A stretch of DNA of 51,775 nucleotides from Deltaproteobacteria bacterium. Lineage in GTDB: Bacteria > Desulfobacterota > Dissulfuribacteria > Dissulfuribacterales > QOAL01. Location: the NCBI GenBank assembly GCA_026986785.1, contig JALSNW010000011.1, forward strand, positions 1 to 51,775. Direction: 5' to 3'. The notes beneath the pieces are model-generated. The model had not been told where the DNA came from and searched no databases. It saw nothing but the letters and a program-made list of their open reading frames with translations. The position numbers and the translations under genes were made by a program. Positions 3,019-17,257 of the stretch are shown here, in pieces; the first letter of the stretch is position 1; each line of letters opens with the position of its first letter.

Positions 3019-6000
3019 ATGAATGTAGAGTGGAAAAATAGAAACTTGGGAGAAGGAAAGCCCTTTGATTCCCCGTATGGAGATCTCAGACCATTCTGGA
3101 TAGTTATAATCTTGTTGCTTCCTCTGTCGTTGGCAACAGAGGAGTCTGTAGCTGCACAACAGGCGGCCATAGAACTTCGTGAAGGCATTGACCAATATAC
3201 CCTTGGCCCATATCTGTATTATCTGGAAGACCCCAAAGGACAACTTACCATTGCGGAGATTACATCCAACAAGCTCAAACACCACTTTTCCAGATCCAAC
3301 GCACCTGCTCCTGGATTTGGTTTCACCTCTTCTACCTATTGGTTCAAGTTTTCTCTCACCAACCCATTGGAGAAAAAGGTGGATCGCTATCTTGAGATAG
3401 AGTATCCACTCTTGGACCATGTGGAACTGTATGAGCCCACGCCTGTGGGTACTTACAGGGGCTATAAAGAGGGAGATCACAGAGAGTTTTCTCACAGACC
3501 TGTACTCTATAGAAATTTTGTATTCATTCTTGAAATACCTGCTGAGACAACCCTCACATATTACATAAAGGTGAAGACATCCAGTTCTCTTAATCTGCCT
3601 GCAAAGCTCTACACCCCGGCAGCCTTTATAGACAAGGTGGAAAATGAAGAGATGGCCCTGGGTATGTACTTTGGCATACTCTTCGCCATGCTTGCATATA
3701 ATATGATTCTATATATTTCTATCAGGGAATCGATATATTTGTATTATGTCTTATTTGTTACATTTAATTTTCTATTTCAGCTTGATTTGACAGGTGTCTC
3801 TTTCAAGTATCTATGGCCTTATGAACCTCACTGGGCAAATATAAGTCTACCCTTCTTCATATTTACTGCATTTTTCTTTGGCACCCAATTTACCAGGGGC
3901 ATCCTGAATACAAGAAAAAACATATGGGTGATAGATATCCTATTAAAGATATTTCTCTATCTTGCTGTCGCTGGGGCCGTAATGAGCCTTCTCGTCCCCT
4001 ACAATATCAGCATAAGGTTGGCCACACTCTTCATTATTACTGTGATTGTCCATATAGTTGCAGGTTTCATCTGCCTCCTCAGGGGATATAGACCGGCCAG
4101 ATACTATGTCTTTGCCTGGACGGTTTCCTTGGCAGGCATGGCCATTTTCGCCCTGAAGTCCTTTGGAACCATCCCCAATAATTTCTTCACCGTGTGGGGG
4201 ATCCAGATCGGTTCGGCCTGGGAGGTGATCTTGCTGTCCATCGCCTTGGCCGACAGGATCAATATATTGAGCCGGGAGAAGGAGAGGATTCAGTCTGAAT
4301 ACACGAGTAAGCTGGAGGCAGCAAACTTGAGACTCGAGGAGTTTACCAGAAATCTCGAGGAAAAGGTGGCCCAGCGAACGAGGGAACTGGAGGAATCAAA
4401 TATCCTTTTGAAGAAACAGGCCCAAGAGATGCGCATTGCCGAGGAGCAGGCTGAAAAGGCCAACAGGGCAAAATCTGAATTCCTGGCAAATATGAGTCAT
4501 GAGATCAGAACCCCTCTCAATGCCATCACAGGTGTTACAGGCCTGGCATTGGAGATGGAAGGCCTGCCTCCTAAACTAAGAGAATATCTGAAGATCATAA
4601 AGACCTCTGCCTATTCCTTGCTGGGATTGGTAAACGATATCTTGGATTTTTCTAAGATAGAGGCCGGTAGGATGGAGCTGGAAAATACAGAGTTCAGCCT
4701 TCATGAAATCGTTGAGAATCTTGCGGAGATGTTCTCCGAACAGGCATCGGCCAGGGGTGCAGAGCTTATAATAGATATCCACCCAGCAGTACCGAATCAC
4801 CTCATAGGTGATCCAATGAGACTGAGCCAGTTGCTGACCAATTTCATATCCAACGCATTGAAGTTTACCCCCGAGGGTGAGGTATTGCTGGCATGTAGGT
4901 GCGCGAGTTTGTCAGAGTCTTCTACACGGTTGGAGTTCTGTGTTGAAGATACGGGTATAGGTATAGATCCAGAGCGGTTGGATATACTTTTTGATATGTT
5001 CACCCAGGCAGATACATCCACTACCCGGAGGTTTGGTGGTACTGGTCTGGGGTTGGCAATCTGTAAAAAGATTGCTGACCTGATGGGTGGAAATATTGTC
5101 GTCAGTAGCCAGCCGGGGCAAGGTACCCGTTTTGTTTTTTCTGCGGAGTTTGAACTTGGCCAAGATCCTGGCGGCATGGTAGAGATCTGTCCTCCTTTCA
5201 AGGAGGAGATGCCAGTTGTCCTCTGCTGTAATAGCAAAAGGCTCAAGACCGCCCTCGAGAACATATTGCAGTCCGTTGGGCTCAAGAATATCGAGCATGT
5301 ACAGGGGGATTCCTTGGAGGCAGTCATGGATACCCTTGAGGGGATATCCCTGCTCATTCTGGATATAGGGATGGAGAAGGATCCAATGACAAAGGTGAAT
5401 GGTCTGACCAAACGATTCCCCAATCTATTTATTGCCATTTGTCACGGCTTTGATTTCCAGCCCCTGGAACATGCTGCGGATATGTCACGAAGGATCTTTT
5501 TCCTGTTGAAACCAGTTACCAGGGGGCCTGTTGTCAAGATGATGAACGCCATCTTTACAGAGGGTGGGCATATGGAGCAGATGTCTGAAGGCCATGAAAG
5601 GGAGCCTTTGCCTTTCAGGGGGGCACATGTGCTTCTCGTGGAAGATAACGAGATCAACCAGATGGTAGCCAGGGACATCATTACCAGGACCGGTGCCCGG
5701 GTAACCACTGCGGAAAACGGTAGAGTGGCCCTATCCTTGGCCAAGCAGGGTTTTGATATAATACTGATGGACATCCAGATGCCAGAAATGGATGGTTATG
5801 AGGCAACCATGGCCTTGAGGGCAAGGCCAGAGATGGCTCATGTGCCAATAATAGCCATGACAGCAGGTGTCTTTGAAGATGACAGACAGAGATGCTTCGA
5901 GGCTGGCATGAATGATTTTCTCATGAAGCCAGTGACCCCGGAGTCTGTCACGGCCATGTTGAAGAAATGGCTGAAATCCAGTTACGGGATCAAACGAAGA

Positions 6001-6657
6001 GGGCAGATATGGGCCAATGATGGAGAAGGCAGATCAATGCCTTCGTTGGAAGAGATTTTACAATACCTCTATGGCATAGATCGAGAAGATGCCTCAAAGC
6101 GGTTTGGGAAGAATGGTGCCCTCTTCTTGGAGGTACTTTCCAGGTTTGTTTCCCAATATTCCTCATTTGCCCAGGAGATAGAGCTCTATCTCCCCGAAGA
6201 TATTGAAAAGGTGTTGGCAGAGGTGCATACCCTCAAAGGTGTTGCAGGCAATCTGTCTGCATTGGTCCTCAAAGACCTTTGTAAGGCCCTTGAGGATGCC
6301 ATCCGGGCGGGGGATATTGATCAGGCAAGATTGATGCTGCTGAAAGTACAAAAAGAGATAGATGCAATATCAAGCTCCTTCAATGACAATAGCTCTGGTC
6401 TTCGCCCTAACGAGGACAAGGAAGTAACCAAGGAGGTGGAAGCAGGCAACCTGGTGGAGAGCGTCTTGGGGCAGCTTGACGAGATGCTATCTTTGAATGA
6501 TATCGATTCGGATCTCTTGTGGGAGAAGTTGAGGCCCTTGATTGATGGCCGGATTGGGGAACAGGACATTGAAGAGTTTGAAAGTCGGCTCGCGGACATG
6601 GATTTTGAGGAGGCAAGGGGAAAACTTCAAGAGATTAGGAGGCTTTTGAACTCATGA
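3019..6657 (+). CDS. 7TMR-DISM hybrid sensor kinase with receiver and HPt domains
   Basis: Large inner-membrane hybrid histidine kinase, 1212 aa. In order: N-terminal signal/anchor (about 25-45); periplasmic 7TMR-DISMED2-like ligand domain (about 55-195); seven-helix 7TM-DISM region (about 210-400); coiled coil (about 420-480); HisKA with [15 protein letters not shown] (H494); HATPase with intact GIGI and GTGLGL boxes; a degenerate receiver (about 735-845) that keeps LILDI and KP but lacks the N-terminal acidic pair; a full receiver with VEDNEINQ, D918 and KP; and an HPt domain with HTLKG (H1070). One protein thus holds the whole His-Asp-His phosphorelay. The 7TMR-DISM family is thought to bind small ligands, often sugars, but the ligand here is unknown. 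The stop overlaps the next start as ATGA, so the two genes are coupled. Confidence 0.9.
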
Positions 6658-8168
6658 GCCATGACTTGAAGGCAAGACCACCTGTTTTGATACAATCTCT
6701 TCTGGGGGATCTGAATCACAAGATCCGCTCCCCTCTCAATACCATAATCAACACAACGGAGCTGGTCCTGAGACAGGATCCTGATCCGCCACTCAGGAAC
6801 CATCTTAGAACCATTGAAAGGTCTGCATCTGGCCTATTGTCCCTGATCGACGATATAATTGCCCTGTCTGAAGAAGAGAGTTGTGCCTATTTTTCATCCT
6901 TTTGCCCGATATCGCTCCTGGAAGAGGTCAGGGAGGTCATAGAGATCGAAGGGCAGGCAAGGGCAATCCCCCTCCTGGCCCTTGATCTGGGTGAGGAGAT
7001 GCCAAGGCGCCTTAAGGGTCCAAGGACTATCCTGAGGTATGTTCTCATACAAATCCTGGACTACTTAGTGTCCCACCTCAGAGCCAGACAGATTCTAATA
7101 TCCCTGTCATGGGACAAGGAAGAAAGGCTTGTTCTCCAAGCCAAGGCCCTTGTGGGGCAGGGTAATGGTGTGGTGACAGAGGAGGATTTGAGGTCGCACC
7201 ACAAATTGGCCATTTGCCATAGCCTTTTACGCCATGTGGGTACTGAGCTCCGATTTGTCACTAGTGCAGAAGGTATGTCCTTCGTGGCTCCTTTCCCGGT
7301 TGAAAAGGTTGCCAACGAGGGAGGAAAGATAGTGGCTCAGGAGATGGACAAAGAACCCCCTGTGATCCTCATGGTAAATAGCGAGGGTTTTTCTACTGGG
7401 TTAATAGGGCGTCTCCTCGACATGGAGGGCTTTCCCGTCAGGAAGGAGGCGCACCTTGAAGGGGCCTTGGAATATTTACAGGCATCCAGTGGTCAATATT
7501 CGGTGGCTTGTATCTTGAATTGGCAAGATGTAAAGGACGAGAAAGATCTTGCCATAGACATCCTTCGTTCAGTACCAGGCCATGAGCAAATGCCCATAGT
7601 AATCGTGGAGATTCCAGCCATGGCAATAATGGCTCTTGCCTCCACTGAGACATCCAGAGATCTTTTGGGCCTTTTGATGAAGCCAACGAAGAGCCAAGAG
7701 GTGTTGGCAGAACTATTGAGGTTGCTAGGATGGGGTCATCTGAGTCTCAAGGGTCAAGATGTCCAGGAAAACCCCTTTCGTCAGGAGCAACATATCGTGG
7801 AAGAAAAACTTAGGGGATTGAGTGTGCTCATTGTGGAAGACGATAGGATAAACCAACAGATACTCTTGGACATATTAAAGGCCAAGGGGGTCAAATCCAT
7901 AGTGGCATCCACAGGTAGAGCTGCCCTTAAGGCCATTGAAAGAAAGAGATTCAATGCCGTATTGATGGACATCGGTTTGCCAGATCGCGATGGCTTCAGT
8001 TTGACCAAGGATATAAGGAAAAGTGTTTTGAACAGCTCTACCCCTGTCATTGCCCTGACAGCCAGTACGAGTAAAGAACAGAAGTGCTATGATGCAGGTA
8101 TGAATGCCTTTCTATCAAAGCCATATTCCCAAGAAAAGCTCCTGAGGACCCTGTGTAGATTGGTTTAG
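6654..8168 (+). CDS. Degenerate histidine kinase paralog with intact C-terminal receiver
   Basis: Soluble 504-aa protein translationally coupled to the hybrid kinase (ATGA overlap). It opens with a HisKA-like helix carrying [10 protein letters not shown] (H22), so the phosphorylatable His is present. The following HATPase-like region (about 110-220) lacks a recognisable N box and the DxGxG and GTGLGL boxes. A degenerate receiver follows (about 240-355) with no phospho-acceptor Asp. The last domain is a canonical receiver with VEDDRIN, D439 (VLMDIGLPD) and KP. The order repeats the cytoplasmic half of the upstream kinase without the HPt, so it looks like a duplicated and decayed copy. It probably cannot bind ATP and may accept phosphate from the neighbour's HPt or act as a partner in a heteromer. 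It has no DNA-binding domain. Confidence 0.8.
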
Positions 8169-8181
8169 TGAGGGTCGTGCC

Positions 8182-9834
8182 TCAGGGTACCTCGAATCTT
8201 TCGAGATGCATGGTTACGTTACCCGCTATGACATCAGCATGATTTGCATCCTGAAACTCTATGGAGATGGTACCACCAGCCCCGGCCGATATGGTTGGTT
8301 GGCCATTGTAAGGGCAGGTGGCACATGGTCCACCTGTCCAGTCGTCCAGATTTCCCAGATATACGGTAGCACCTTCTGCCAGCATATTGTGAGATGTCCA
8401 CCATCTTGCACTATGGTCCTCTCTGTAATTGTACCAGGCCAGGGCCATTTCCCCTCCACGGGCATCGAGAAAAAAACCCATACCATTATACGAAGGATCA
8501 TACCACCAGCCAGTGATATGGCGCGGATCTTCAGGCCCTGGGGCAAAGTCTGCCATAAAGGGGTGAAATGTCTTGGTGATCACTTGGCCATTTAGTAGTG
8601 TAGAAAAAGTAACTGTATCAGAGGGGGTGTTGGAGAAATGTACTACTATGGTACCAATAACACTTGAGCTTGGCGGGAAATAGGTCTCTCCCCATGTCCA
8701 TCCAGTCCAAGAATATAGATCTCCTGAAAAGTTGTCCTTGTCTGTCATCTTGCCACCTGCTGAATACCAGGTAGTTCTGCCAATGCCATCGAATACGAAC
8801 CAGGCAAGATAAATCTTGCCGTCTTTTACCTCTGTGGCAAGTCCAGTACCAGGTTCATTGGGGTCATACCACCACCCGGTAAAGCCCCTGGGGGTGTTTG
8901 ACAGCTCTGCATAATACACCCCTCTTCCACTTCCGTCCTTGGCAGACCATAAAATGGCCTTACCGTTGAAATCGAGGGAATTGATATTTTCATAACACCT
9001 GTCCGTAAGCCTTGTAATATTTGTACCATCCCAGTGATATATGTCCTCGCACTGGCCATCTGCCTTTATCCATACTATGCTGCCATCCTTCAGTATTGGC
9101 CCTATATCGTCCTCGTTGTCGTCGGTGATGTAAATGTTTTGCCCTCCTGCCCAATACATGATTTCAAAGTCTTCTCCGTCCCACTCGGTCCATGCGATGG
9201 CACCATGATCAAGGCTGGGGGTAAGATCATCTCCATCAGAATCCGTGAGCTTATTGAGGTGTTGGCCATCCCAATAGAAGAGATCATAGTTGTCATCGTG
9301 TTTCCCAACCCATGCCACCCTGTTTTCGAAAACGGATGGCTGTAAGTCATCATAGTTGTTATTGGAGACTTGAAGCTTTTTACCTGGGGTACGAAGAAAT
9401 ATCTCGGAATCCTCCCTCAAGAAATCTTCCGTGTCCTTTTCAACAAAGGCGATGTTGTCTCCATAAAGAGATATTGTGTCAATCACATCATCTTCCACCT
9501 CTTGGGTTGAATTTCCATCCCAGAGCTGTATGTCGTTACTGTCGTCAATCCAGGCCAGTTTGTTCCCCGAAGCAGAAAGGATCAAGACATCGTCATCATT
9601 GGCTATCCTCTGGACGATATCGGTGGGATCGGTTGCCTTCCACATAAATATGCCTTTGGAATAGTGGCTCCAGAAGGCATATCCTGAACCAAGGGCCACC
9701 TTGAAAAATTCATTCGGCGAGTTCGTATGGTCAAGCTGGGTTATGTCGAGCTCGGCCTGGCTATCAGAGGGTATGCCTGCCATACCAGATGAAACAACAA
9801 TGGATATCAAGAATATTCTATATAGAAATCCCAT
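8182..9834 (-). CDS. Secreted beta-propeller-like protein with two C-terminal GWWYDP domains
   Basis: Exported 550-aa protein of unknown function. It has a Sec signal peptide (about 1-27, ending near SQA). Residues about 40-310 hold at least six repeats of 40-50 residues with patterns such as VAWV-(D/G)-LFYWDG and LTDSDGDD, resembling TolB/WD40-like blades rich in Asp. Two related domains of about 110 residues follow, each opening with GWWYDP (near 318 and 441) and containing LAW(F/Y). This C-terminal domain recurs in secreted proteobacterial proteins but has no known function. The start ATG has AGGAG upstream. It is convergent with the kinase pair (13-base gap) and divergent from the cytochrome gene. 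The acidic repeats could bind calcium, which is an inference. Confidence 0.75.
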   Translation of the reverse strand: MGFLYRIFLISIVVSSGMAGIPSDSQAELDITQLDHTNSPNEFFKVALGSGYAFWSHYSKGIFMWKATDPTDIVQRIANDDDVLILSASGNKLAWIDDSNDIQLWDGNSTQEVEDDVIDTISLYGDNIAFVEKDTEDFLREDSEIFLRTPGKKLQVSNNNYDDLQPSVFENRVAWVGKHDDNYDLFYWDGQHLNKLTDSDGDDLTPSLDHGAIAWTEWDGEDFEIMYWAGGQNIYITDDNEDDIGPILKDGSIVWIKADGQCEDIYHWDGTNITRLTDRCYENINSLDFNGKAILWSAKDGSGRGVYYAELSNTPRGFTGWWYDPNEPGTGLATEVKDGKIYLAWFVFDGIGRTTWYSAGGKMTDKDNFSGDLYSWTGWTWGETYFPPSSSVIGTIVVHFSNTPSDTVTFSTLLNGQVITKTFHPFMADFAPGPEDPRHITGWWYDPSYNGMGFFLDARGGEMALAWYNYREDHSARWWTSHNMLAEGATVYLGNLDDWTGGPCATCPYNGQPTISAGAGGTISIEFQDANHADVIAGNVTMHLERFEVP

Positions 9835-10084: not shown

Positions 10085-10254
10085 TGGCTTTTGATAAATT
10101 TGGGCAGGTAAAAAGGAGATCAGATAGGAGATTCTTAAAAGGTGTCACATACAAGAGATCGATTTTTGCCCAAAGGTTGGGAATGGCCTTCCCCATGCAT
10201 GGGATGGAGAAGGTCGACTCATGGTAAGAAGTTCATGAACAAGGGGTATTGTTG

Positions 10255-12246
10255 ATGAGATCCAAACAGATGACTTATTGCCCAGGGATTTTGGTTCTTG
10301 TTTTTGCTTTTTTGCTTTCCTTACCTGTGTTTTTTTTGGCAGATGCGTGGGCAGTCAGTGATGATGACTGCTTGAGCTGCCATGGCTCGTCCGATATCCT
10401 CGATATAAGCAAGGCTGACAGGCTCGATATGGTTGTCCCTGTAACTGGGATTAAAAAGGTATCGCCTGGAGTTACAAGCCTGTATGTCGATCAGGACAAG
10501 TATGCCTCTTCTGTCCATGGTGACTTGAGCTGTACAGATTGTCATACGGACATAACTCAGCTTCCTCATAAGCAATATCTGGCACCAGTAGATTGCAGCA
10601 TGTGTCATTCGGATATTGCAGAACAATACAAGAAAAGCCGTCACTTCAAGGTCAGCCATAAGCCATGCTGGGCATGTCACAACCCTCATGAAGAGGTACC
10701 TGTTGAACAATTGAATCAAAAGCAGCGTATATCCATATGTCTCAGGTGTCATAAGAAGACCTCACATGATTGGCTACCACAACCTGAGACCCATTTCAAA
10801 TACCTGGAGTGCACTGTTTGCCACTCTCCAAAGGCAACAAAGGGGATGTTTTTGCAGTTCTATTCCAAAAAGGATGGCAAACAGGCCCCTATTACTTATT
10901 CAGAATTCACAAAGGCCTTGGGGGCCCAGGGAAAAGATTTGTATGTAAAGATCGATCTCAACAAAGATGGGCAACTCGAACCTTTTGAGATAAAGGCGGT
11001 GTTGAAACAACTGAAAGCCGCGGGGTTGAAGGATTGTGGTCTAAGAGAACAGATACTTGTCACAAATCTCTATCACAACTTTACCTACAAGGTGAAAAAC
11101 ATCAAAGATTGTGCCATGTGTCATACCTCCATGTCCCCATTCTACAAGACTGTAGAGGCAGAAATACCGGATAAGGATGGCAGCTTCAAGAAGTATCCTG
11201 TCAGTAGGGCTTATCTGGCAAAGATGCCTCCCATTCCCAATCAACACGCCTATCTCAAATCTGTGCACGCTGAAAATGGGGTCACCTGTCTGGATTGTCA
11301 TTCCGAGTTCAAGGTGCTCAAGAAGAATGGCAAGATGGTGGTAAAGTCCCCAGGTATTGTGGTATGCGCAAATTGTCACTCGGATATAATGGACAAGTAC
11401 AAGAAGAGCCTTCACTACAGGGTTAGTAAAAAGATATGCTACAACTGCCATAATCCACACTCTGTAAAGCCCTTTAGCCAATTGACAGCCCAACAGAGAA
11501 AAGCGATATGCCAGAAATGTCATACCGATGCACTACAGCAACACAAATGGCTGTCCCAGCCAAACGTCCATTTCAGATATCTGGAGTGCACCATGTGCCA
11601 TAGCCCCAAGGCCAGCAAGGGGATCGTGTATTATTTCCGTGGAATCACTTCTGATGGCAGGGCAGTCCGCCTCGCCTACAAGGACCTCGCCACTATCCTC
11701 GGCAAACCCAAGGTGGATATTGCAGAGTATATCAACAAGGCGCAGTCTGGCAGAGTGAGTGCATTCGAGCTTGCAGCATTTCTCAAAGACCTCAATAAAA
11801 ATGTAAAAAAGACAAAGGATCTAAAATACATAGATGTAGGCGTGCACCTTATAGTGTTAAAGCCAGTACATAACTTCACAGACAAGGGCCTAAAGGCCAA
11901 AGACTGCATTGTTTGCCATTCAGCCAATGCATCTTTTTATTCCAAGGTGCTTCTCGAGATACCCCAGCGTGATGGTGGAATACAGACATTGCCTTTGGAC
12001 AAGAGTGTGCTCACAGGGGCCCATGGCATAAGCGGCGTGAGTGATTTCTATCTGCTCGGCGAACACAGATTGACCAAAAAGGATATCGAAGATCTTTGGT
12101 ATACCATCAAATCCATTGGTTACAGATGGATCGACATAATCGGTGTAATGATAATCCTTGGCGGTTTGGGTTTCGTTGGGCTTCACTCCTTGTTCAGGAT
12201 ACTCACCATCAAAAACCGTCGTAAGAGCAGGAAATATGACAAATAA
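10255..12246 (+). CDS. Membrane-anchored 13-heme cytochrome c with EF-hand insert
   Basis: Exported electron-transfer protein, 663 aa, with 13 CxxCH heme sites from residue 39 (CLSCH) to residue 551 (CIVCH). A signal peptide covers about 1-33 and one C-terminal helix (about 626-648) with a basic tail anchors it, leaving the hemes in the periplasm. Hemes 2-7 and 8-13 form a tandem duplication: each copy runs through CHSDI, CHNPH, HFKYLECTVCHSPKA or HFRYLECTMCHSPKA, then a non-heme insert, then one last heme. The insert of copy one has a canonical EF-hand loop DLNKDGQLEPFE (234-245). The matching loop in copy two (494-505) keeps only the central Gly and final Glu. I chose the ATG at 10255 because AAGGGG lies eight bases upstream; two TTG codons precede it. 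The next gene is a cytochrome b, so the pair probably passes electrons to or from the quinone pool. Confidence 0.9.
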   Translation: MRSKQMTYCPGILVLVFAFLLSLPVFFLADAWAVSDDDCLSCHGSSDILDISKADRLDMVVPVTGIKKVSPGVTSLYVDQDKYASSVHGDLSCTDCHTDITQLPHKQYLAPVDCSMCHSDIAEQYKKSRHFKVSHKPCWACHNPHEEVPVEQLNQKQRISICLRCHKKTSHDWLPQPETHFKYLECTVCHSPKATKGMFLQFYSKKDGKQAPITYSEFTKALGAQGKDLYVKIDLNKDGQLEPFEIKAVLKQLKAAGLKDCGLREQILVTNLYHNFTYKVKNIKDCAMCHTSMSPFYKTVEAEIPDKDGSFKKYPVSRAYLAKMPPIPNQHAYLKSVHAENGVTCLDCHSEFKVLKKNGKMVVKSPGIVVCANCHSDIMDKYKKSLHYRVSKKICYNCHNPHSVKPFSQLTAQQRKAICQKCHTDALQQHKWLSQPNVHFRYLECTMCHSPKASKGIVYYFRGITSDGRAVRLAYKDLATILGKPKVDIAEYINKAQSGRVSAFELAAFLKDLNKNVKKTKDLKYIDVGVHLIVLKPVHNFTDKGLKAKDCIVCHSANASFYSKVLLEIPQRDGGIQTLPLDKSVLTGAHGISGVSDFYLLGEHRLTKKDIEDLWYTIKSIGYRWIDIIGVMIILGGLGFVGLHSLFRILTIKNRRKSRKYDK

Positions 12247-12290
12247 AAGGTATCTGACATAAAGCAATGACAGAAAATTCGGGGGGATAT

Positions 12291-12923
12291 ATGACTAAGG
12301 AAAGAATATTTCTTCATCCACTACCTGTGAGGATCTGGCACTGGATTCATGCCATAGGAATCGTACTGCTCGTTCTGACGGGGATACAGCTCCATGTCCC
12401 TGGTGTAATAAGTGTGTTCGGTAGCTTCAAGACCGCAGTTGCCATACACAATTTTTGTGGTTTCCTTGTGCTTGGGGACTATTGTCTATGGCTTGGGTAT
12501 TATGTGATAACCGGGAAACTTATCAAGCTTTATGTGCCTCCTAAGACAGATATCACAAAGGGTTTGCCCCAGCAGGCAGCCTTTTATCTATACAAGTATT
12601 TCAAGGGGGAAGAGCCTCCCTTCCAGCCGTGTGCAGACGAAAAGTTCAACTCTCTTCAGAAATGTGCCTATTGTTTCATCATGTTTGTATTGGTTCCTCT
12701 CCAGATAGCAACAGGGGTGATGCTTTACAATATTCGTTTCTTCAAGCCTGTGATGGATGTTTTTGGAGGTGTGCAGGTAGTCGATGCAGTACATCTCATC
12801 ACGTCCTATTGTTTTGTATCTTTTCTGTTTGTGCATTTGTACCTGTGTACCTTGGGACACACCTTCTGGGCCCATTTCAAGGCAATGATATTTGGATACG
12901 AAGAGGTCCATACTCCGGGTTAA
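12291..12923 (+). CDS. Cytochrome b561-type membrane subunit
   Basis: Di-heme b-type membrane cytochrome of about 210 aa, similar to the cytochrome b subunits of formate dehydrogenases, Ni-hydrogenases and thiosulfate reductases. Four hydrophobic segments carry candidate heme ligands: HPLPVRIWHWIH at the N-terminus, AIHNF in helix two, DAVHL and FVHLY in the last helices. I chose the ATG at 12291 because GGGGGG lies four bases upstream; an ATG at 12267 would add eight polar residues. It lies 44 bases after the 13-heme cytochrome and is surely in its operon. The expected role is quinol oxidation or quinone reduction with electron exchange to the periplasmic cytochrome. No molybdopterin or iron-sulfur catalytic subunit is nearby. 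Confidence 0.85.
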   Translation: MTKERIFLHPLPVRIWHWIHAIGIVLLVLTGIQLHVPGVISVFGSFKTAVAIHNFCGFLVLGDYCLWLGYYVITGKLIKLYVPPKTDITKGLPQQAAFYLYKYFKGEEPPFQPCADEKFNSLQKCAYCFIMFVLVPLQIATGVMLYNIRFFKPVMDVFGGVQVVDAVHLITSYCFVSFLFVHLYLCTLGHTFWAHFKAMIFGYEEVHTPG

Positions 12924-13097: not shown

Positions 13098-14258
13098 TCA
13101 AATCCTGCGATGTGTTGGTTGATTTGAGAGCTTGTGTCCTCTCTTTTGTTCAACCTGCCTGGCAACTGGTTCAGATGCTGCGGGCTTAGAAGGTAGCTCA
13201 AGTATTACCAAGAGCTTGCCACCTCTTGTTCCTATCCTGATATCACCCCCATGGTCGAACATGATCTTTCGGCAAAGGGCCATCCACAGATGCGAGTGTT
13301 TGGATGGAAGAAAGGTATAGTCGGTTTCCTGAACTTGCTGTTTTTTGCCTTTATAGGGAGGTTTTACCGGGATGTCGTCATCTTGTTCTATTACGATCAA
13401 TATCTCGTCGAGACAAAGTCGGGCCTGGATCAAGAGCTTACGGCAGTCCTTGTCCATATTTTCCATGACGAATTCGACTACATGCCATAAGACCTGGGCA
13501 ATGAGTGCCTTGTCCATGACAATTACGGGCAGGTCTTCCTCAATGACGCACCTTATCTCTATATTGTGACGTCTGCCCTCGTATCTGAGACCCTTACACC
13601 AGCTCTTCATTGCCCTTACGATATCAGTAGGGGCGAAATGGGGTTTGATGGGCTGCACCTCGTCACATATGTTGGTTATTGCCTTCTCCATATCTTCTAC
13701 CGAGGCGATGATCTGCTCCATCTGTTTTCTTATGCCGTAAGGGGTTTCTGGATCCAGTATTATGCGTCTTGTGAGGCCACCTATGGTCATGAGGGGGTTT
13801 CTCAATTCGTGGGTTACCCGATATACCAACTGCCCTACCGCGATTATCTTTTCCGCAGCATTCAACCGTTCTTCGAGAATGAGCCTGTCTTCCTGGATCT
13901 CGATTATCTCCCAGAGGAGCCTGGCTCCGAGGTGATCCAGTACCTTTACCTTCCTGGGTTTTGATGCAATGATCTCCTCAAGTACCTGATCATTGCCTGT
14001 AAGCTCTATCACGAGATCCAACTCAGGATATTTGAAAAATTCCCTGTAATTGTCTGCCGTCTTGATCCCTATTTCCTCCGCAAGTACCCTGCCAGGGGCG
14101 TCGGGGCGGGGATCAGCAACCCCGATGATATGGATTTTGAGCCTTCTGAGAGGATAGGTCGTCAGAAGCCTCAAAACGTCTCTACAGCCCTTTCCACCAC
14201 CCACAAAGATGGCATTTATCGTAAGGATATTATTGGATTTCTCAGAACCCTTCTTCAA
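13098..14258 (-). CDS. Rossmann-fold domain fused to a histidine kinase-like module
   Basis: Cytoplasmic 386-aa protein with no membrane segment. Residues about 12-105 form a Rossmann-like domain: a beta strand, then FVGGGKG, a second GVADP strand end, and VIELTG further on, resembling NAD(P)-binding dehydrogenases. A helical linker (about 105-140) leads to a HisKA helix pair with VTHELRNPLM (H150). The C-terminal ATPase-like region (about 250-365) is damaged: the N box is not recognisable, EQDDDIP stands where DxGxG is expected, and LWMAL replaces GLGL. It may therefore be a pseudokinase or signal adaptor. TTG is the only usable start, because a stop lies in frame just upstream and AGAGAGG precedes it. 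It has its own promoter candidate, 216 bases beyond the end of the upstream kinase gene. Confidence 0.75.
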   Translation of the reverse strand: MKKGSEKSNNILTINAIFVGGGKGCRDVLRLLTTYPLRRLKIHIIGVADPRPDAPGRVLAEEIGIKTADNYREFFKYPELDLVIELTGNDQVLEEIIASKPRKVKVLDHLGARLLWEIIEIQEDRLILEERLNAAEKIIAVGQLVYRVTHELRNPLMTIGGLTRRIILDPETPYGIRKQMEQIIASVEDMEKAITNICDEVQPIKPHFAPTDIVRAMKSWCKGLRYEGRRHNIEIRCVIEEDLPVIVMDKALIAQVLWHVVEFVMENMDKDCRKLLIQARLCLDEILIVIEQDDDIPVKPPYKGKKQQVQETDYTFLPSKHSHLWMALCRKIMFDHGGDIRIGTRGGKLLVILELPSKPAASEPVARQVEQKRGHKLSNQPTHRRI

Positions 14259-14360
14259 AAAGCCTCTCTATTCTCGGTCAAGACGGTTCGCTATTTCAAT
14301 AACAGGACAGCGGAATGGAAACCTCTCAAGAAACAGGTATGCTATTCAATAGTTCAAGAT

Positions 14361-14405
14361 TTAACAAATGTTAATATTATATCAGGGGCAATGGTCAGAT
14401 GGAAA
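14361..14405 (-). promoter_or_regulatory. Promoter with palindromic operator ahead of the Rossmann-kinase gene
   Basis: On the minus strand, TTTCCA (14405-14400), 18-base spacer and a perfect TATAAT (14381-14376). One base further is TTAACA-N2-TGTTAA (14374-14361), a perfect 6+6 palindrome over the expected transcription start, where a repressor would block initiation. The leader to the TTG start is about 110 bases. Confidence 0.45.
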
Positions 14406-14474
14406 TAGTGAAGAGCAGGGAATGGCTATTTTTTGTTGTGGAAACAGTGGAACCTCATTTGCATGGGCAAGGTA

Positions 14475-16658
14475 TTATTTCTTTTCATCCTTTTCCATGT
14501 GGCTGGGGCCACTTATGGGTAACACGAAGCTGAAAGTACTTCCCTTGCCCGCCTTGCTCTCTACCCATATTATTCCCTCATGAAGTTCCACAAAGTTTTT
14601 ACACAGGGCGAGTCCAAGGCCTGTGCCCTTGTATCTTTTGGATCTGGATGAATCAACCTGTTCAAAGGCATCGAATATCTTGCTTAGAAATTCCGGCTTG
14701 ATACCTATGCCCGTATCCCTTACGGATATCTTCAAGAATGATTCTGAGGTACTATGCGAAAGATTGGAGATATTTTCCTTGAAAGGCCCTGGTAGGTTTT
14801 GTTCGATCCAGTTTCTCGTTACTGTCTCTGCATGGAGCTCTATGGAACCCCCATCTTTTGTGAACTTTACTGCGTTTGATACGAGATTATAGAGTATTTG
14901 TTTGAGTTTTTGTTCATCGGCTTTGATTGTTTTTGGTATATCTTCAGCTTTTATGGAGAGCCTGATTTGGTGTTTCATGGCCTTGTGCCGGATCATGGTG
15001 AGGCTGGATTGGAGTACATCCTCCACCGATACGTCGGCAAGGGCGAGTTCCACCTTGCCCGCCTCTATTTTGGACAGGTCCAGGATATCATTTATGAGGT
15101 CCAGGAGATGACGCCCACTTTCAAGTACATCCGATAGGTAATCTCTCTGTGTCTCATTTAGATCGCCGAAGTGCCTGTCGAGTAAGAGTTCTGAGAAACC
15201 AATTATGGCATTCAAGGGGGTACGAAGTTCATGGCTCATGTTTGCGAGGAAGTCGCTTTTCATCCTGGATGCCCGCTGAAGCTCTATTATACTCTTTTTC
15301 AACTGGGCTGATTTTTGTCTAAGATCCTCAAATGTCATGGCGTTGTGCACGGCCACTCCAAGTTGTCGCGTGGCATTTTCCAGGAAAGTCAGGGTATAGT
15401 CGTCCTGCTGCCTGACACCAGCAAGTACCAACACGCCAATACCTTTGCACTGGAAGCTCAGGGGATAGCCATAGACTTCCAGCGGGCTGAAGAGGCCATT
15501 GTCCGGGTCTTGGGGCCAGGTCTTGGATATCATTTCCCCTTGTTCGAATACCTGTTGGGCCAACTGGCTTCCAAGTCCCTCGAGTTGGTTGAGGATAGAA
15601 GGATTGTGAAGTCTCCATTCTTCAAGAGAAGGGGCGCAGAATGTCTTTTTAATGAATAGGCCTTGGCGGCCATTCTCCCACAAAAATACCGAGCCCCAGG
15701 TGACATTGGCCACTTCAGAGATCTGATTCAGGCACTTTTCTAACATCTCGTTTATATCGATGGAGTTCATCTGGCTGACGAGTTCTCCATAGGCCTGCTG
15801 AATCTTTTTTTGTACCCAGAGCTTCTTTTTTTGGGCCTCGCTGAGCTTCAAGGCCTCGGTCCTGAGGGCGACCTGTCTTTCCAGTTGCTCTCTGTTCATC
15901 TCCAGCCTACGGTCACGCTCCTGAATCTGCTCGAGCATGTTGTTGAACCCATCCATCAGCATGCCAAGTTCATCCGCACTTGGAGATGCCTTGACCCTGA
16001 CAGAGAAGTCCTGCCTGTTTTTCACTGTCTGTATGGTGCGGGCAAGATTCTCTATTGGCACAGAGATTATTCTCTGTAGTCTCGATGAGATGAAATAAGA
16101 AATAATTATAAGGGCGGCCATTATCCCTGAGACAATGAGGGCAAAGAGTTTGATATGGCTATAAATCCAGCGTTGGTCAGCCCTGATGAAGACCACGCCG
16201 ATGAGTTTGCCGTTCAGTTTTATAGGTCTCATCATGTCGAGATAATTCTCTGTCAGGCTCTTGGTCTGGGCTATATCGAATAGAGAATTTTTATCTGTCA
16301 GTTCCTGGACATTGCTTATCTTTATCTCTGACGGTAGCGAGGCACGGGGGTCAGTGGAAAATTCTGCAAAGAGTTCCCCCTTGGCATTGTAGATTGCCGC
16401 AGCCACTATGTGCGGTTCAACCTTCAGTGCCTCGAGGAGTTCTGTTGCCGTATCTGGGTCCTGAAAACTCAGGGCAGCGGTACTGTTTATGGCGGTAATG
16501 CCAGCGATGGCAGAGATATTGTTTATCACGGATCTTCTTATGGACAAGGCCTCATTTATTACGAATATGGCAGATATCACGATTATCATGAGGCCTGAAG
16601 TAGCCAGGATCATGATAGTAAGCTTGTTTTTGAGGGAGAGTTCAGAGAAACTTACCAT
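14475..16658 (-). CDS. CHASE8-like/HAMP/GAF sensor histidine kinase
   Basis: Inner-membrane histidine kinase, 727 aa from the ATG at 16658. In order: first membrane helix (about 12-33); periplasmic CHASE8-like domain (about 38-165, with the family pattern NSTAALSFQD); second helix (about 170-192); HAMP (about 193-246); coiled coil; GAF-like domain (about 285-435); HisKA with NMSHELRTPLNAI (H476); and HATPase with GIGI and GTGLGL boxes intact. I chose the ATG at 16658 because GAGGCAGG lies just upstream and it overlaps the YfiR-like stop by seven bases, a coupled arrangement. It is last in the operon with the receiver, TonB receptor and YfiR-like genes. It probably reads a periplasmic signal brought by the YfiR-like protein and phosphorylates the operon's lone receiver (inference). 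Confidence 0.88.
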   Translation of the reverse strand: MVSFSELSLKNKLTIMILATSGLMIIVISAIFVINEALSIRRSVINNISAIAGITAINSTAALSFQDPDTATELLEALKVEPHIVAAAIYNAKGELFAEFSTDPRASLPSEIKISNVQELTDKNSLFDIAQTKSLTENYLDMMRPIKLNGKLIGVVFIRADQRWIYSHIKLFALIVSGIMAALIIISYFISSRLQRIISVPIENLARTIQTVKNRQDFSVRVKASPSADELGMLMDGFNNMLEQIQERDRRLEMNREQLERQVALRTEALKLSEAQKKKLWVQKKIQQAYGELVSQMNSIDINEMLEKCLNQISEVANVTWGSVFLWENGRQGLFIKKTFCAPSLEEWRLHNPSILNQLEGLGSQLAQQVFEQGEMISKTWPQDPDNGLFSPLEVYGYPLSFQCKGIGVLVLAGVRQQDDYTLTFLENATRQLGVAVHNAMTFEDLRQKSAQLKKSIIELQRASRMKSDFLANMSHELRTPLNAIIGFSELLLDRHFGDLNETQRDYLSDVLESGRHLLDLINDILDLSKIEAGKVELALADVSVEDVLQSSLTMIRHKAMKHQIRLSIKAEDIPKTIKADEQKLKQILYNLVSNAVKFTKDGGSIELHAETVTRNWIEQNLPGPFKENISNLSHSTSESFLKISVRDTGIGIKPEFLSKIFDAFEQVDSSRSKRYKGTGLGLALCKNFVELHEGIIWVESKAGKGSTFSFVLPISGPSHMEKDEKK

Positions 16659-17257
16659 TGTCCTGCCTCTACATGGCCCTGGGACCACAGCACCCGGGCA
16701 ACCTTGAGAAGTTTAGAGTTGAACGATATGCCCGCCCTGCGGGCAGCCTGCATATTGATTACTATCTGGATGCGGTGTCGCCTTGGAAGCAGGCCGATGA
16801 TCCCCCCATTTTTCAAGAAGTCGTCTGTATCTCCAATGGTGAGTATGCCCCTGTCAGCAAGGTCTTTCAGAAGTCTTGGCTGGATCAGTGCCTGGGTGTC
16901 CACGAATAGTACATGACAGTCTATCATGTCAGCCGGTGAATCGATGGACTTTATGTAAAAAGGCCGGCCTCTTATCCTTTCTCCCTTTGTTATCACACGT
17001 AGGTTTTTCGCTATGTCCTTGTTACCAATGACCCCAATAATAAAGGTATCCTTGGTATGGCCAGCCTTGGGCAGGGTGATGAAGTTGGTGAGATTGTAGA
17101 TGAAGGCTGCCTTGATCTGATCTGGTTTGAATGAGGCTGCCAGGCAGCAAGACTGTGGTATCGAAAAGAAGTACGCAATAATACCAAGGCATATACAGCA
17201 GGGGAATATGGATAGTCTCCTGCAGCGTTTTCGTTTTTTGTAATTCAAAAGCTCCAC
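16652..17257 (-). CDS. YfiR-like (DUF4154) periplasmic protein
   Basis: Exported 201-aa protein of the YfiR/DUF4154 family. A long basic N-terminus and hydrophobic segment (about 17-40) look like a signal peptide or anchor. The family pattern is visible: IKAAFIYNLTNFI at the start of the domain, FIIGVIG, CHVLFVD and IGDTDDFLKNGG. In Pseudomonas YfiR is a periplasmic repressor of the diguanylate cyclase YfiN; here no cyclase is adjacent and the likely partner is the CHASE8-like kinase encoded next. The start is a GTG with GGAAGATAAC before it. It overlaps the TonB receptor stop by 13 bases, so receptor and YfiR-like protein are coupled. A start at an internal TTG overlapping that stop is possible. 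Confidence 0.85.
   Translation of the reverse strand: MELLNYKKRKRCRRLSIFPCCICLGIIAYFFSIPQSCCLAASFKPDQIKAAFIYNLTNFITLPKAGHTKDTFIIGVIGNKDIAKNLRVITKGERIRGRPFYIKSIDSPADMIDCHVLFVDTQALIQPRLLKDLADRGILTIGDTDDFLKNGGIIGLLPRRHRIQIVINMQAARRAGISFNSKLLKVARVLWSQGHVEAGQW

Follow-up and report, generated by a model that had tools for sequence, protein, structure and literature searches.

A tandem-duplicated, 13-heme CbcA-like cytochrome c with predicted EF-hand inserts in a bacterium of the order Dissulfuribacterales

Locus features

The window (i.e., the whole stretch of 51,775 nucleotides that was analysed) contains an open reading frame for a CbcA-like, tandem-duplicated 13-heme cytochrome c of 663 aa on the forward strand (10255-12246), starting with ATG and with an in-frame TTG at 10249. 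All features of this protein described below lie on the same strand. The 13 CxxCH motifs are located at residues 39, 93, 114, 138, 162, 186, 286, 345, 371, 395, 419, 445 and 551. A probable signal sequence (residues 1-33, 10255-10353) was recognized by direct reading of the hydrophobic N-terminus. The motif of heme 1 (residues 39-43, 10369-10383) is not part of the duplicated modules. The alignment of module R1 (hemes 2-7, residues 88-322, 10516-11220) with module R2 (hemes 8-13, residues 338-589, 11266-12021) runs motif by motif, with 41.5% identity over 236 aligned residues. The 13 motifs and the two six-heme copies described in the initial annotation are confirmed. The non-heme insert of about 100 residues that it had placed before the sixth heme of each copy was also found, the gap between the fifth and the sixth heme measuring 100 residues in R1 and 106 residues in R2. 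A C-terminal transmembrane helix is located at about residues 625-650 (12127-12204), as in single-copy homologues; a helix is predicted at 625-662 in the full-length model, and the single-copy homologues align there too.

Insert 1 (residues 191-285, 10825-11109) is composed of a beta hairpin, a helix, the EF-hand, a strand and a conserved histidine, His274 (11074-11076). Its EF-hand loop, DLNKDGQLEPFE (residues 234-245, 10954-10989), is intact. Insert 2 (residues 450-550, 11602-11904) has the same predicted secondary structure and contains a degenerate loop, NKAQSGRVSAFE (residues 494-505, 11734-11769).

The next gene (12267-12923, +) encodes a CbcB-like b561-type membrane cytochrome b of 218 aa (Ni_hydr_CYTB, E=2e-23). 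The two cytochromes are encoded by separate reading frames and not by a fused one of the CbcL type. Histidine kinases and a kinase/response-regulator hybrid are located on both sides of the cytochrome pair (3019-8168, +; 13098-16688, -). A 550-aa protein with a signal-like N-terminus and repeated GWWYDP segments, with no Pfam match, is encoded at 8182-9834 (-). Elsewhere in the same genome, a 128-aa ORF (contig C47, 2950-3126; loci L001 and L002) gives two EF-hand matches that narrowly miss the family cut-off. The genome carries dsrA with a score over the curated cut-off, and the organism is therefore probably a sulfate reducer.

Family assignment

Searches of the protein against Pfam and NCBIfam gave general multiheme matches, with the specific models far under their cut-offs; the DmsE/decaheme SO family model TIGR03508 scored 86.6 bits against a curated cut-off of 192.2. 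The family profile A4, built from an alignment of R1 modules of which the R1 of the window is itself a member, gave the window protein 410 bits. Pairwise identities to single-copy homologues are 21-39%, and an independent search gave E values down to 2e-35. Whole-genome searches revealed tandem 13-heme homologues with 71, 69 and 46-48% identity, more distant tandem forms, and many single-module homologues with 7 or 9 hemes.

The CbcB-like protein is 42-47% identical to CbcB-like proteins of Geobacter. In the wide loci (leaving out L074, which ends at a contig end), a CbcB homologue, 38-78% identical to that of the window, lies directly 3' of the EF-hand cytochrome nearly always; many of the counted homologues were found via CbcB, so that adjacency there is given by construction, which does not apply to the wide loci. 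Scanning named genomes with the CbcB alignment A3 yielded 500 relatives; the 80 that were kept include Geobacter argillaceus, Geobacter sp. AOG1, Malonomonas rubra and a Seep-SRB2 record. The gene order in G. argillaceus (L117), i.e., 7-heme EF-hand cytochrome, b-type cytochrome, 12-heme cytochrome, monoheme cytochrome and membrane protein, is that of the published cbcABCDE (Cbc5) cluster (PMC10470525, PMC11434368).

On the basis of the homologues, the adjacent CbcB and the matching order in L117, the gene is assigned by sequence as a tandem-duplicated CbcA homologue, and the pair with the next gene as a CbcBA-type complex. Homology of the heme modules, the adjacent CbcB and the C-terminal anchor are as in CbcA; the number of hemes is 13 (1 + 6 + 6) and not seven, and the protein is therefore called a duplicated homologue and not CbcA in the strict sense. 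CbcBA has been described as a membrane-bound oxidoreductase linking quinones and periplasmic cytochromes, and quinone-linked electron transfer is known for the complex of Geobacter (PMC10553843).

Predicted fold of the inserts

Loop 1 together with the following isoleucine (residues 234-246) fits PROSITE pattern PS00018 fully. Loop 2 does not fit; position 1 is changed from D to N, positions 3 and 5 are A and S, and E12 is kept. The initial reading of a perfect EF-hand loop in the first insert and of its skeleton only in the second was thus correct. The Pfam EF-hand models score 16-17 bits on loop 1, with cut-offs of 25-26 bits, so that automatic annotation would miss the EF-hand.

The structure of module R1, predicted with 50 homologues, has a mean pLDDT of 84, with 95-96 in the loop blocks. 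It contains a helix at residues 229-233, the loop, and a helix at 243-255 (196-200 and 210-222 in model numbering), and position 8 forms a one-residue bridge. The EF-hand is preceded in the model by a strand and a helix; they could be the remnant of a degenerate partner EF-hand. The full-length prediction has a mean pLDDT of only 57 and is weak beyond the inserts; both inserts are locally good and show equal elements, with values of 80-90 over residues 461-530. Insert 2 thus appears, as modelled, to keep its fold despite the lost ligands.

With the R1 model as query, Foldseek found nothing significant in the PDB (no match with E < 0.001), and entry 28pb (see below) was absent from the structural matches listed for this model, the library extending up to 8 April 2026. 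In a second structural comparison (VIA) the best match was NrfB of E. coli (Z 5.2, rmsd 3.4, 106 aligned), followed by other multiheme cytochromes at Z of about 4-5; the likeness to NrfB may reflect common heme packing and nothing beyond it.

Conservation of the EF-hand in the family

The family set comprises 102 distinct proteins with 120 inserts, whose members are mutually related, so that their number is not one of independent events. PS00018 fits 93 of the 120 inserts, where shuffled inserts (a match in 0.09% of cases) predict 0.11; the other 48,513 aa of these proteins, outside the inserts, contain one match. All four ligand positions (D at 1, N, D or S at 3, an accepted residue at 5, E or D at 12) are kept in 107 inserts. 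The most conserved non-heme columns of the insert are H274 (119/120), D234 (117/120) and E245 (111/120). Position 8 of the loop is I, V or L in 119 inserts, and the rest of the insert is variable.

Over the helix-loop-helix, profile A4 matches calmodulins with E values of about 1e-6 to 5e-6; a calcium-binding protein is matched with E=5.6e-8. The profile also matches PDB entry 28pb, with the loop DTNNDNYISLAE, over its entire length (E=8.6e-120). Read in isolation, the low Pfam scores of the single window protein would suit an accidental 12-residue pattern in one acidic insert; the number of fitting inserts over the shuffled expectation, the profile match to calmodulin and the predicted helix-loop-helix leave this explanation with practically no probability, and a chance origin is excluded by the conservation among homologues and the shuffling. 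Structure prediction, family conservation and the profile match agree that the EF-hand is a real fold: the model gives a helix-loop-helix and no other fold at this place, and the homologues conserve the acidic positions.

The EF-hand is therefore, as judged from sequence, a widespread built-in part of the CbcA family and no peculiarity of the window protein; the homologues exclude a unique build. The initial annotation knew of no described cytochrome of this kind. That statement holds for the EF-hand, of which no description in CbcA was found in the literature, with a prior mention in Joshi et al. 2021 being possible; it does not hold for the family, which is named, has been studied genetically in Geobacter and has a solved homologue in 28pb, whose depositors may already know of the EF-hand. 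A literature search on the EF-hand with multiheme cytochromes also found nothing; the one paper that combines an EF-hand with a c-type cytochrome deals with PilY1 and a noncanonical cytochrome c (PMC8833165). CbcBA as a kind of complex is thus already known, and the EF-hand in CbcA is apparently undescribed in the literature searched. The EF-hand, conserved and located between two hemes, would represent a metal site that has been overlooked in the CbcA family, since a lone loop frequently falls short of the Pfam cut-off.

Duplication and loop loss

In the module tree, the R1 and R2 modules of the window's tandem group are placed in separate groups; a clade with support 99 unites the R2 module of the window with that of L042. 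The R1 of a second 13-heme group is placed on a branch of length 1.5. In the order of the window, the tandem form was found in three of 46 genomes, belonging to three families.

Both loops are intact by ligand positions in L043 and L051-L054, so that the second loop of the window protein was lost after the duplication, as the initial annotation had proposed. Within its tandem group, a decayed second loop occurs only in the window, in L042 (= L004) and in L005, where the first loops are canonical; the decayed loops are spelled differently (NKAQSGRVSAFE, DRAGSGRISALE and EKNSNGKVSAFE, respectively). L055 shows the opposite pattern, with a weakened first loop (H at position 3) and an intact second one. 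The same tandem homologue (L055:5417-7477, also L019) has 12 CxxCH motifs; in place of the missing one stands CGTRCH, which may be a heme site of the CX3CH type.

Ligand-free or shortened remnants of their only EF-hand are present in betaproteobacterial homologues (e.g., L121, L132, L136, L140) and in two from Nitrospirae (L084, L125), all of which keep the conserved histidine. With ligands lost in separate lineages, the sequences indicate that the loop was probably lost several times over in the family, and the basic function does not depend on the site in some lineages. Nine-heme CbcA homologues with a decayed loop and the histidine kept (L121, L132, L136, L138, L140, L153, L156, L157) are mostly betaproteobacterial (Rhodoferax, Polaromonas and kin) and are natural no-calcium controls.

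Other variants of the CbcA subunit were observed. In G415 (L056:5884-7644, also L021), a 7-heme EF-hand CbcA and CbcB are naturally fused into one chain of 587 aa. In L133 (2277-4991; a Thermodesulfobacterium geofontis MAG), L083, L101 and L148, the encoded CbcA homologues contain 25 or 17 CxxCH motifs and one EF-hand insert. The 13-, 17- and 25-heme forms are variants of the CbcA subunit and show how it gets lengthened; in the 17- and 25-heme forms this took place through additional heme motifs, and in more than one lineage.

Proposed role of the loop

The reading that is preferred here, and held to be likely, is that of a tandem-duplicated CbcA of a CbcBA-type complex in which the R1 loop constantly binds one calcium ion as a structural clamp. 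The protein would be the periplasmic multiheme subunit, and electrons would pass between the menaquinone pool, via the adjacent cytochrome b, and periplasmic cytochromes. The calcium ion held by the intact R1 loop would stiffen the helix-loop-helix, then the strand and His274, before the last heme of the module, and would thereby fix the packing of the module's last two hemes. In R2 the fold would be kept and the ligands lost, with calcium binding probably absent or weak. The analysis directly supports the homology, the pairing of the genes, the conserved ligand pattern, the predicted fold and the loss after duplication. Calcium as the ion, its constant occupancy, the quinone link and the direction of electron flow are presumed, and His274 is probably an axial ligand of a neighbouring heme. 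The wide range of affinities among single EF-hands and the lineages that lost the ligands speak against this reading.

The fold may instead hold another ion (magnesium, manganese or a lanthanide) or dock CbcB or a periplasmic partner, the metal being incidental. In favour of this, the R2 fold of the window's clade is predicted with good local confidence although its ligands are gone, so that the fold may serve a purpose of its own. Conservation speaks against it: outside the heme motifs, loop positions 1 and 12 and one histidine are the most conserved columns of the insert, and 107 of 120 inserts keep all four ligand positions. This reading is considered very unlikely.

Calcium occupancy might also shift the redox potential or the geometry of the module's last two hemes and so gate the flow of electrons between CbcB and periplasmic carriers, an idea of the initial annotation; in the clade of the window, one half only would respond. 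The position of the EF-hand between two hemes, before a nearly invariant histidine that is a probable axial ligand, would suit such gating, as would an intact and a decayed loop in one protein, which is expected if the halves are tuned apart. Periplasmic calcium, however, follows the environment, and concentrations in marine or sediment water are often in the millimolar range. In a periplasm exposed to it, a canonical loop should usually be occupied, which favours a constant structural site over gating. Most tandem relatives outside the clade have both loops intact, and the decayed copy is R2 in the clade and R1 in L055, which argues against a designed asymmetry. Gating is thus considered unlikely, and calcium binding in one half as the functional point, as put forward in the initial annotation, is not upheld, the asymmetry being limited to the clade and reversed in L055.

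That the quinone-side cytochrome of the widespread CbcBA complexes contains a calcium-responsive switch is likewise quite improbable; if it did, calcium would tune the flow of electrons to extracellular acceptors or syntrophic partners, and the halves of the tandem form could be tuned apart by losing one loop. CbcBA-type complexes serve in low-potential iron reduction in Geobacter and have been proposed to act in the syntrophic methane oxidation of Seep-SRB2. With natural variants that have two, one or no loops, a solved homologue and the tractable genetics of Geobacter, the site, for which the structural clamp is the preferred reading, is directly testable.

Comparison with known systems

CbcA of Geobacter shares with the window protein an N-terminal heme followed by a six-heme module, the EF-hand insert before the last heme, the C-terminal transmembrane helix and the adjacent b-type CbcB; an equal EF-hand is present in the Geobacter loci L088, L092, L104, L117 and L118. 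The window protein differs in that the six-heme module is present twice, no 12-heme CbcC is adjacent and the membrane-proximal EF-hand loop has decayed. The CbcBA of Seep-SRB2 (PMC10553843) is a further close system. In G041, a genome of the window's order that appears to be Seep-SRB2, an EF-hand CbcA homologue is likewise combined with an adjacent CbcB, but it has 9 hemes and one EF-hand, without duplication of the module. PDB entry 28pb, named 'Cytochrome c', matches the family profile with the full length of its soluble part of 278 residues, including the EF-hand loop, and contains a single module.

In CbcL-type c/b fusions a multiheme c domain acts with a b-type membrane domain, as in the pair of the window, where the genes are unfused; a fused form with the EF-hand exists (L056), and a fused 7-heme form (L077) is without the insert. 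NrfB, DmsE and NrfH are weakly alike in the heme part by profile, far under the curated cut-offs, and their structural scores are in the range of common arrangements. With the calmodulin superfamily the family of the window protein shares the 12-residue loop with D at position 1, N or D at 3, D or N at 5, a hydrophobic residue at 8 and E at 12, and the flanking helices; it differs in having one complete EF-hand per module, set inside a cytochrome.
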